From: Gordionus sp. m RMFG-2023
Lineage: Eukaryota; Nematomorpha; Gordioida; Chordodea; Parachordodidae
NCBI RefSeq assembly: GCF_954871325.1
Contig: NC_088777.1
Location: 45,237,366-45,301,365 of the forward strand
Direction: 5' to 3'
DNA length: 64,000 bases
Positions 5,755 to 60,146 of this stretch are shown in pieces. The notes below the pieces were generated by a model that did no database searches, had not been told where the DNA came from, and worked only from the letters and a program-made list of their open reading frames with translations. Both the position numbers and the translations under genes were made by a program. How positions within the stretch are numbered: position 1 is the first letter of the stretch; every line of letters starts with the position of its first letter.

Positions 5755-8700
5755 TTAAAAATTTAGACCTGAGCCCGAAACTTGCCGGCCTCTAGAAGAG
5801 TCTTCATCAGGATTTCTCAGAATATTATTACCCGAGCCCGATTCGACTAGCAAGTCTTTAGGAAAGTGTTCATCAGAGCGACTCATATTTTTTGAAAATT
5901 GGAAAAATATACGATTAGAATTTTCGCTTCTTAAATCCTGATTATTTTGGAACATGGCGTAAACTTTGATAACGTATTCAGCCATATATATGAATGGTAC
6001 ATTGAGGTAAATTCTTTTGGTATTCTATAGGATATTATTTTTTTTAAAAAATTTATATTATAATCATAAATAATAAATATATTTTTTTTTGAAAAAAAAA
6101 ACAATATTCATTTACCCTGCATTCACAGTTGGCTCGAAATTGTATAAAACGCCGCCGCGCTAACTATGAATGATGGGTTAGACTATTAAATTATTTTTCA
6201 ATACACATTAGCATAATATTAAGTATATTATATTATGCAATCTCACTAAACATGAAAATTAAAAGAAATAAAAGTCTAACTTTTTTTAGAATTATTAATA
6301 AGCCTTTATATTGGTCAATATATTATTCTTTATTTTTTTTTCATTTTATTAACCTTGTCGAAATATTTTCTTTCAATTCGTTCATTGTTCCTTTGCAAAA
6401 TAAATTGAAAGGAATCAATTTCATTCCTTGATGTGTTCGTATCCAAGTTCAAAGCCAATGAATAAGATGAGTTCGGCAATTTCATCAATGTTTGCAATTG
6501 AATTGATGGAATGGATGGGTAATGGTCTATAAAAGATAAGAAATAAACTTATAAATATTTAAAACCATTAATACCTGATACTTTGAAATCTTGTCCGTTA
6601 TCTAAAATTAATTAACAAATTTGCCTTATAGAATTACATAATTAAAATAATTATATATAAATATGTCAATTTTATTGAATTCTAAGAAATTTAATATCTC
6701 CGATTTCCACACCATAAATAATATTTTTTAAGAAATGTTGGGACATATTTATTAGAGATCTGCCGGGGAATTATTAAAAAATTTTGAACGGTGTCGGGTT
6801 GTCGAACAATTTATACATAGAAAACCAAATAGTTTTTGCATATCTTTGATTTTTGGGAAAATTTTAATTAGCCATTTTAGGCATCCAGTTTTTTTTGAAT
6901 ATCATACTCATATTTTGATTTTAATTAATACCATTTGAACATAAATAGTCTAACTAAAATACTGAATATAAATAATAATGGTAAATTCACAAAAAATTAA
7001 ACAATTTATTTATGAACCAATTACAAACGCACAAAAACCTATAACATTATATCGAACACAATTGATTTATAAAACGGTTGTTGCTGAAAGAATAAGATAG
7101 CCCTATAGAAGAGATATAAGCGCCTTGAATGACATTAGGAAAGAAAAAAATAATTAGATATAGATATTTTATATATAATTGTAAGAATATTCACTAAAAT
7201 ATTTTTTAAAGGCCAGGGGGGGGGGGGCACTTTTATAAAATTTTAACGAACCGGGTCGGACCTGACTTTTGTTAATATTTAATAAAAAATATAGTGGGAT
7301 GGGAAATGCGCCGGAGAATTACTTGTACAAAAATTATTAATGGACTGAAATGGACTGGGCTTAGATGGGCCTTGCAGATGTCTAATTTAGATTTTATTGT
7401 AAAAATATTGGAAATTCTTTGTGTATTATAAAAACTGCATAGCTTACATACTTTGGACCACCGGGAACATAAGTCCAATTCATATAAAAACAATTAAATA
7501 TAAGTGAATTTTATATTAAAAGAATAACAATTGAGATTTTTCGACATTTATCAAAATAATTGGCTGAGACGCACCGAACCGGTACAAGAAGAAGACGCCT
7601 CAGAATATTATTTTATAATTACCAATTGCCAGCTTAAGCTTTAATTTTGAGGTTAGCTATCTAAAATATTTTATTTACAGATTCTATGAGAGTTTATATA
7701 AAAGCTGGTCTGCTACTCTGCTCTACCCTAAATATCGAAAATATTTATTGTGGCTGTGAAACATGTTGGTGTGTGCATTTGTCAGGAACAATTTACTTTT
7801 GCTAAAGAATTAAATCAACATATTATGATTATTTGAATTTGGAAAAATTATTACACTCTCAATAATATTCTTGAGCCATTATTACATTTTATTACATTAC
7901 ATTAATATTTTAAGAAATGATAAATTATAAAAAATAGGATTCTCTTGAATTGTTACCGTCATTAAAATATATATCCCCTTTTTAGAAAATAAATTTGATT
8001 TATTAGAAGCCATTCCAAAATTATTATACCGAAGAAGATCTTTTCAAAAATCACCGATAATATAAAATATCGCCTATATTATTTCCTATAGTCATTCACA
8101 AAATATCATGCCAGTGATATAAAGATTTAATCTTAATATTAAATTTTATGTACACGGATACAAAAACAAAATTTAGATTCCTTATTTTATATCAACAATT
8201 TTAGGATTTAGCGAAATCCAAAATGAAAGAAATAATACAATATCTACCACTCCCTCTATTTTTTTTAAATTTTAAAAATCGTTCTTTTTTGAGCATATTA
8301 AATTAATTTTGACGAAATGTTCCTATTAACGAATTAATTTATAATAGAAATAAATTAAATTAAAAATATTATTTTACACATAAAAAATTTTAGAATTGAA
8401 TAATCCTCTGAGGTTGGTAATCCAGTCAAAGTTAATATTCTAATAAAATAATGTTTTGTTTCTTCCAAGTGGCGTACTAAAAATTTATTCTAAGAAAAAA
8501 AGATATTATTATAAACCAAAAATAAAAATAATAAACCTCCGATATAATATTTCTAGTGACATAATGAGCTTCTCCATTAGTTACTTCATAAACTCTGTAA
8601 TAAAAGGCGTGATTAGGATATTTATCATTTAATTCATGAAAGGCTCTAGGATTAGTAAAAGTGACTTCTACTGAGTACAGTCTAGGTAAGTTATTCGTAG

Positions 8701-58000: not shown

Positions 58001-60146
58001 TCGTAATCAATTACCAGTTATAGTCAATTACCCGAAGAAGTGCTATTAGTTACAAGAGAATGTTAGAAATAAGCAAAGACTAGGATAATTTATCAAAAGA
58101 ATGTAACGGACTTTAGAAGAAATAAAGTTGTAAAGAAAAACTAGTATCAATCGTTAATCGTTGACTAGCAGTCATGAATCGTTAAAAAGCAAGCGTTAAT
58201 CTGGTTTCAGAGGATAAAATTCAAAAATTTCGAACTGTTATTAAAAGAAATAAACTTGTAAAGGCAATAAAGCGGTAATCGGATAAACAGTCATTAGAAA
58301 CTAAGAATACGAGACAAGGGACGGCAGTCTTTAGAACTTAGAAAGTCAGTATGTGATTAAAACAAGTCATTGGATAAGTAATAAAAAAGGCCTTGGTTAG
58401 CTATAAGTTCATTAAAGCAGAAATAGAAAAGAAGTTGGTCATTCGCAGAATGGTGGGTCTGATTTAAGTAAAAAATTTTTTGGATATTTCTTAACTTTTA
58501 CTTTTTTTTAAATTTTTCTTTTAATTATTTTTAATTTTATAATATTTTACTGTATAATTTATTATGGTATAATTAGTAGTTGTGAATAAAGGAAACTTTA
58601 AATTAAGTTAGTTTCAAATTTATATCTGTATTATTTAATCTTTTTATTTATTTTAGACCCAATTTTAACAATTCTTGTTATTCCAACAATTTTCCAGTTG
58701 TTACCTCAATCATGCTTATTAAATCACCAAAAAGAATAACTATTAGGATTTCTTATTTCCGCGTTTATTAAAGTAATTGGCTTAGGACGCATCGGACCGG
58801 TACAACAAAAAGACGCACATTAAAATGATTAATTGCCAGCATTAGCTTTAATTTTGATGTCGGTAAACTAAGATATTTGTTGGTAACAGTTCTGAGAGTT
58901 TTTACAAAAACGGGTTTGCTACCCTGCCCTCCCTAAACATCGAAAATATTTATTTTTGCTGTGAAACATGTAGGTATGTGCATTTGTCAAGGAATGACTC
59001 ATCTAGATGACATTATTACATTTTATTATACATTCTATTTAAAATATTAATGTGATAAATATTTTAAGAAATGATATATTAAAAACAATAGGATTCTCCT
59101 GAATTGTTACCATCATAAAAATATATATATTCCGTTTTTAGATTCAAAGAATATTATGCCGAACAAGATCATTTCAAAATCACTATGCTAATAAAATATC
59201 GCCTATATTATTTCCTATAGTTATTCACAAAATATCATGCCAGTGATATAATGATTTAATCTTAATATTTCATTTTATGTGTACGAATGATAAAATAGAA
59301 TTTAAATTCCTTATTTTATATCAACAATTTTAGGATTTAGCAAGATGTAAATATAAAAATTTCCAAAATAAAAGCAATAATACAATATCTATCTATCTCT
59401 CCTTCTATTTTCTTCAATTTTAAAAATCGTTCTTTTTTTTGAGCATATTAAATTATTTTTGACTGAGATGTTTCTACTAACGAATTAATTTATAGTCGAA
59501 AAAAATTAAATTAAATAAAAAATATTATTTTACATATAAAAATTTTTAGAATTGAATAATCTTCTGAAGCTTGTAATCCAGTCAAAGTTGTTATTCTAAT
59601 AAAATAATGTTTTGTTTCTTCCAAGTGGTGTACTAGAAATTCATTCTAAGAAAAAATAAATTATTATTATAAACCAAAAAATAAAATATAATAAACCCCC
59701 GATATAATATTTTCACTGACAAAGTTAGCATCTCCATCAGTTACTTCATAAACTTTGTATGAAAAGGCATGTTTAGGAAATTTATCATTTAATTCTTCAT
59801 ATGCTCGAGGAGTAGTAAAAGTGGCTTTCACTGAATACAATCTATGAAAGTTACCCTTAGATTCATTGTGTTCTAAATCGACCGGAGAAATTTTAACGTC
59901 TTGAACAGAAAAGCGATGTGTTTCTATAAAATTATTTAAAAAATTATTATTAATATTGAATATAAAATCCGAAATGTAAATTTAACGTCAAAAATTAAAA
60001 TAACTTTAAATAGGAGATCTAAAATAAGGGATAAATTTAGAATATTTCTTTTTACCACATGCATCGATGTCAGGAAGTTGCATATAACCACCATCAACTC
60101 TGAAAATGTTTATTATAAAATAAACTATAGCAATAAAATTTTTCAT
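55008..60146 (-). CDS. Secreted two-domain FN3-like protein, copy 4 (complete)
   Basis: Minus-strand exons: 60,056-60,146, 59,697-59,923, 59,534-59,645, 55,674-55,849 and 55,008-55,229. They total 828 nt, an open 275-residue protein. All junctions are GT-AG with the family phases. The leader is MKNFIAIVYFIINIFRVDGG. Domain 1 has FSVQDVKISPVDLEH, TFTTPRAYEELNDKFPKHAF and HYFIRITTLTG. Domain 2 has SIPSIQLQTLMK, SLAVNLDTTTS and YVIKVYTVF, with one extra residue (ERRKYFDK) before exon 5. The exon-5 tail ends RYPVKH as in copy 2. Intron 1 is only 132 bp against 0.85-2.0 kb in the other copies. Intron 4 contains a GAAA microsatellite. Substitutions preserve the frame throughout, so the gene looks functional. 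Confidence 0.8.
55275..55380. repeat. (GAAA)n microsatellite in intron 4 of copy 4
   Basis: About 26 uninterrupted AAGA/GAAA units, absent from the other gene copies. Read on the gene strand it is a pyrimidine (TTTC)n tract starting about 45 bp upstream of exon 5. Confidence 0.97.
55432..55500. repeat. Small inverted-repeat insert in intron 4 of copy 4
   Basis: TTAGCGCGAATTGCGAATTA and, in reverse, TTAGCGCGAATTCCCTGAG form the two ends of a ~65-bp hairpin with TATATAAAAT inside. A related end, CAGTTAGCGGGAATTCGCGG, is seen near 61,170. Copy 2 lacks the insert. Confidence 0.55.
56632..56780 (+). pseudogene. Exon-like plus-strand segment, counterpart of 16.2 kb
   Basis: Following TTTATTTAG, the plus strand reads VLKSECVPGLLGNFSLMLG and NGYLGTKSVV, ending at a stop about 50 codons in. 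It matches 16,205-16,330 in the paralogous intron. It may be a terminal exon of an old gene or element; unrecognised. Confidence 0.3.
56885..57035. repeat. 48-bp tandem repeat, three units (intron 3 of copy 4)
   Basis: On the plus strand the units read as 16-residue repeats: KTIMIRFRWLFRNVGV, KTMMIRVQWLFNHEGE, KTLIIRFHSFFNNVCV. The paralogous array is at 17,205-17,355. The strict 48-bp period keeps the frame, but there is no other sign of a gene. Confidence 0.75.
57880..58300. repeat. Degenerate ~170-bp tandem repeat
   Basis: The block ATGTTGGAAACAAGCGACTA...GGTAATAAAAGAAGC...GACTAGTATTCATCGATAATC recurs about 173 bp later as ATGTTAGAAATAAGCAAAGA...AGAAGAAATAAAGTTG...ACTAGTATCAATCGTTAATC. 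A weaker third copy starts near 58,215. TAATCGTT and AATCGC motifs are dense across 57,730-58,180. Confidence 0.55.
58770..58990. repeat. Conserved non-coding block in intron 3 (copies 1, 3, 4)
   Basis: GGCTTAGGACGCATCGGACC to GTATGTGCATTTGTCA matches 7,560-7,790 and 47,680-47,905 in equivalent intron positions. It is not found in the intron of copy 2. No conserved reading frame. Confidence 0.5.

Follow-up and report, generated by a model that had tools for sequence, protein, structure and literature searches.

Pairs of fibronectin type III (FN3) domains are classic protein-binding modules. The described systems closest to the genes considered here are the tandem FN3 domains of adhesion and matrix proteins in animals (NCAM, integrin beta4, neogenin and fibronectin), the ectodomains of class I/II cytokine receptors (IFN-gamma receptor, gp130 and leptin receptor) and, as a known kind, the secreted families that have expanded in particular lineages of parasitic worms. 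The genes, designated A to D, lie on the minus strand of a stretch of 64,000 nucleotides from the horsehair worm Gordionus sp. m RMFG-2023 (assembly GCF_954871325.1, contig NC_088777.1, positions 45,237,366 to 45,301,365). This whole stretch is called the window below, and positions not given in Mb are counted from its first letter. Taken together, the analysis makes it probable that these genes belong to a horsehair-worm family of small, soluble, secreted two-FN3 proteins, which has expanded at the DNA level and evolves fast but under constraint.

The family is like the adhesion and matrix FN3 pairs in its tandem domains with seven strands each (in the first of two predicted models), and these pairs are also its best structural matches. 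It differs from them in sequence (about 5–20% identity in the listed alignments, and below the Pfam cut-off), in its stand-alone, two-domain, secreted-looking products, and in a short helix that domain 1 is predicted to have between its strands B and C. With the class I/II cytokine receptor ectodomains it has the two-FN3 layout and fold matches in common, but the WSxWS motif of class I was found in none of the 18 gene models (searched from the HR/HP residue on), and the conserved disulfide Cys pairs of both classes are missing, since each model holds 0 or 1 Cys over the same range. Nor could a C-terminal membrane segment be seen by eye in the models, which argues against membrane receptors. 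Finally, the family resembles the expanded secreted families of parasitic worms in its putative leader, its tandem expansion, its fast evolution and its lack of named relatives; unlike them, it seems to be built on an FN3 pair.

Gene structure and genomic spread

When the four genes were rebuilt from the sequence, each was found to consist of five exons with GT-AG introns in phases 1, 0, 1 and 0; the phases and junctions match those of the first-pass annotation of this DNA. In gene A, exon 1 (10561–10648), which holds the putative leader, is followed by exons 2 (8537–8763) and 3 (8378–8489) for the putative first and second halves of domain 1, and then by exons 4 (6354–6526) and 5 (5755–6024) for the first half of domain 2 and for its second half plus the tail. 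Gene B begins with an ATG and a hydrophobic leader in exon 1 (19359–19449) and continues through exons 2 (18279–18505), 3 (18117–18228), 4 (14708–14880) and 5 (14186–14413). Gene C is composed of exon 1 (50919–51030), whose ATG lies further 5' than the start site of B and D, and exons 2 (48655–48881), 3 (48496–48607), 4 (46474–46646) and 5 (45875–46144). Gene D likewise has its ATG and hydrophobic leader in exon 1 (60056–60146), followed by exons 2 (59697–59923), 3 (59534–59645), 4 (55674–55849) and 5 (55008–55229). Intron 2 is 47, 50, 47 and 51 bp long in A, B, C and D, respectively.

The ATG-to-stop products reported earlier for three of the genes were recovered at the same lengths, that is, 276 aa for B, 297 aa for C and 275 aa for D, and the computed chance that 275 codons stay open at this base composition is 4e-12. 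Gene A contains 289 open codons and no ATG; CTC takes the place of the start codon seen in B and D. The earlier description of four diverged copies holds for B, C and D, C and D being 77% and 86% identical to B, respectively, but not for A: A and C differ at none of 777 sites in exons 2–5 and at 3 of 90 in exon 1. That is to say, A is not an independent fourth copy; over exons 2–5 the two are the same sequence.

The family itself is larger than the four copies first proposed. A genome-wide search with B as the query gave at least 82 exon matches, which were grouped by position into 21 loci, and when the most diverged copy was used as the query instead, at least 55 matches and no locus beyond these 21 were obtained. 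Together with 13 more loci at 45.214–45.558 Mb of the same contig, the four in the window make 17 within 344 kb, so that the local expansion suggested earlier stands. The dispersed loci are at 8.18 Mb and 2.36 Mb of the same contig, on contig C5 and on the 22-kb contig C31. Among the 17 loci other than A–D, all five exons were modelled at 12 and exons 2–5 alone at L035 and L045; the remaining three, L040, L041 and L049, are incomplete or decayed, combining real exons with others whose scores resemble those of decoys. Therefore, counting A without its ATG, five-exon models exist at 16 of the 21 loci, two more lack exon 1 only, and exons 2–5 are open and well-scoring at 18.

Because the exon caller itself required splice sites, phases and open frames, it was also run on 34 antisense or reversed sequences as a decoy control. 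For exons 2, 3 and 4, the 14 modelled loci outside the window reached top scores of 115–354, 73–158 and 96–248, against decoy maxima of 13, 21 and 9. The short intron 2 recurs at 47–58 bp in 10 of these 14 loci and measures 104–306 bp in the other four. L046, about 37 Mb away, clusters with L038, L039 and L042 and has similar intron lengths, and therefore the family has spread by DNA and not via a spliced transcript. The proposed history is that duplication at the DNA level would have built the 344-kb array and supplied the few dispersed copies. Gene structure, copy number, the leader-like exon 1 and constraint are established at the level of sequence.

Predicted fold and database relatives

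Each product would start with a leader, followed by a short LPDI-type N-terminal stretch and by two tandem FN3-type beta-sandwich domains, of which domain 1 would be encoded by exons 2 and 3 and domain 2 by exons 4 and 5; each exon pair would begin at a phase-1 intron and be divided by a phase-0 intron. The first-pass annotation had proposed a leader and two beta-rich, FN3-like repeats. As for the leader, hydropathy and inspection by eye indicate a hydrophobic one in B, C, D and 12 further modelled loci; at L035 and L045, the exon that would hold it was not found. As for the repeats, each half of the product gives FN3-type fold matches in AlphaFold models of low confidence, and the first model has seven strands in each half. 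Two observations weaken this support: the second model has seven strands in domain 1 and only three in domain 2, and non-FN3 beta-sandwiches tie with FN3 in the fold matches. The Pfam fn3 profile (PF00041) matched 4 of 11 members at E up to 1, and its curated cut-off of 25 bits was not reached, the best match being 20 bits (E 8.3e-4); in the genome scan, it matched none of the 21 loci. An FN3 fold of both domains is thus suggested by low-confidence models and sub-threshold profiles, which carry limited weight, and the family is best described as FN3-like in fold and not as a member of Pfam fn3. Ordinary fn3 matches are dense elsewhere on the same contig (G000:C3:48.56–48.63 Mb and 53.61–53.64 Mb).

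In the 18 models, the sequence from the HR/HP residue on contains 1 to 6 N-glycosylation sequons, and RGD occurs in none. An SGSG motif, which we take to be like a glycosaminoglycan attachment site, is found in the C-terminal tails of A–D, L035, L036 and L037, that is, in all seven modelled members of the clade of the window, and also at the N-terminus of L047, making 8 of 18 models overall.

The first-pass annotation could not match the genes to a named family, and the database search likewise brought up no named relative. Against 5.8 billion proteins, B gave one match at E up to 1, from Gordionus sp. m RMFG-2023; in all, two members were returned, P0001 and P0002, both from Gordionus and both wrongly bounded, representing 2 of the 21 loci. 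P0001 corresponds to L037, but its start falls within exon 1 and its C-terminal part includes about 126 residues not present in the L037 model; it is probably a fusion made by annotation, and by eye its tail looks like part of a retroelement, for which a Pfam search gave no match. The other copies are 40–52% identical to P0001. P0002 corresponds to L042 without exon 1. In a control search with Hsp70, there was no nematomorph among the named rows of the 120 matches listed, and none exceeded 86% identity; therefore, a family restricted to Gordionus is not established from this database. Few genes are annotated in nematomorphs; for Gordionus montsenyensis, presumably the same animal as the one studied here, the number given is 10,819 (PMC11603191).

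Recent duplicate and other repeats in the window

The identity of A and C is part of a recent duplicate with arms of about 20.4 kb each, whose aligned pieces are 99.1 to 99.9% identical. The left arm begins about 10 kb to the left of the window, occupies positions 1–10425 within it and holds exons 2–5 of A, and the right arm (30143–50577) holds exons 2–5 of C. Because the right-hand break of the duplicate falls within intron 1 of both genes, their first exons lie outside it, and the flanks beyond the break are 87.7% identical. A duplicate with such a break could be the result of block replacement or an assembly artefact.

Several other repeats were observed. Four copies of an element some 225 bases long, which aligns with its own reverse complement and looks like a MITE (miniature inverted-repeat transposable element), are present at 2451–2675, 28022–28249, 42572–42796 and 50590–50815; two of them are in the two duplicate arms, the copies are otherwise 75–84% identical, and one starts at a distance of 13 bases from the duplicate's right edge. 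Retroelement fragments at 24449–24916 and 25280–25621 match RNase H (E 2e-8) and an integrase zinc-binding domain (E 2.6e-15), and direct and inverted repeats of about 200–630 bases, mostly at 91–97% identity, are clustered at 21849–26097. In addition, an open frame of 112 codons that includes a CxxC stretch lies in intron 1 of both A and C (9218–9553 and 49334–49669); its first copy gave no Pfam match above the cut-off.

Selection and candidate roles

The first-pass annotation had read selection from the open frames. The ratio of nonsynonymous to synonymous substitution rates (dN/dS) was estimated by maximum likelihood for 18 pairs chosen out of 153, and was 0.13 for A–C and 0.27–0.68 for the others. 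It is significantly below 1 (2dlnL > 3.84) in 15 of these pairs, the exceptions being A–C, B–C and L043–L044, so that the ratio near 1 across all copies that would have refuted the earlier claim was not seen. By counting, the five pairs of the window other than A–C give 0.40 to 0.64, and exon 1 alone gives values above 1 in some pairs, with few changes. Site tests were mixed in two clades (p = 0.018 and 0.72), and variation is equal in predicted strands (0.398) and loops (0.406). In summary, the family is evolving rapidly while remaining under net constraint, and an arms race is not firmly indicated.

Most likely, the products are soluble proteins that act outside the cell in binding or recognition. 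Each FN3 pair would offer a face or its loops to a protein partner, and the copies may diverge to cover several partners. As to where this would take place, the host interface is our leading guess, ahead of a reproductive role, because the worm lives in the body cavity of an arthropod; it is a tentative one, with somewhat less than an even chance. The sequence results do not separate host-facing from reproductive use. It is rather unlikely, though the nearest competitor, that the family consists of reproductive or egg-associated secreted proteins, serving mate or gamete recognition or the egg strings, whose expansion and fast evolution would follow from sexual conflict: local expansion and dN/dS of about 0.3–0.65 fit such proteins as well as host-facing ones, but nothing points specifically towards them.

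Structural extracellular proteins of the cuticle, gut or egg coat, with copy number serving dosage, are doubtful. The leader, the few Cys, the identity of A and C over exons 2–5 and the SGSG tail throughout the modelled clade of the window all agree with such proteins; however, the sequences are not repetitive to the eye, and the other copies, at 40–52% identity to P0001, have diverged beyond what dosage needs. A still less probable proposal is that the proteins are soluble, cytokine-receptor-like decoys for a host ligand of the JAK/STAT type, resembling a truncated receptor without its membrane segment. The two-FN3 layout and the structural matches to IFN-gamma receptor, gp130 and leptin receptor would suit it, as would sub-threshold matches to Pfam Interfer-bind, the best at E 0.11, in 2 of 11 members (a protein matching at E 2.4 in a separate search is one of the same two). 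Against it stand the missing WSxWS motif and Cys pairs, and the adhesion and matrix FN3 pairs match equally well or better. That most of these loci are pseudogenes, or that the family is a repeat lacking a functional product, is very improbable: A without its ATG, the missing or decoy-like exons of L040, L041 and L049 and the leader exons not found at L035 and L045 would fit, but open exons 2–5 at 18 of 21 loci, backed by the decoy control, and dN/dS below 1 in most pairs tested speak against it.

If the preferred reading of a secreted family of binding proteins is carried further, the family may be an arsenal of soluble FN3-pair proteins, specific to the phylum or the genus. The worm, a parasite that manipulates behaviour, would release them into the arthropod it inhabits, and each copy would be fitted to a host protein of its own. 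We regard this specific form as unlikely; if it is true, the family becomes a candidate source of the molecules by which hairworms control their hosts or evade immunity. That the database search returned only two proteins, both wrongly bounded, for 21 loci suggests that nematomorph annotations miss expanded, fast-evolving families. To our knowledge, there are few molecular candidates for the striking interaction of nematomorphs with their hosts, and this secreted-looking family of 21 loci offers a concrete candidate set for it.
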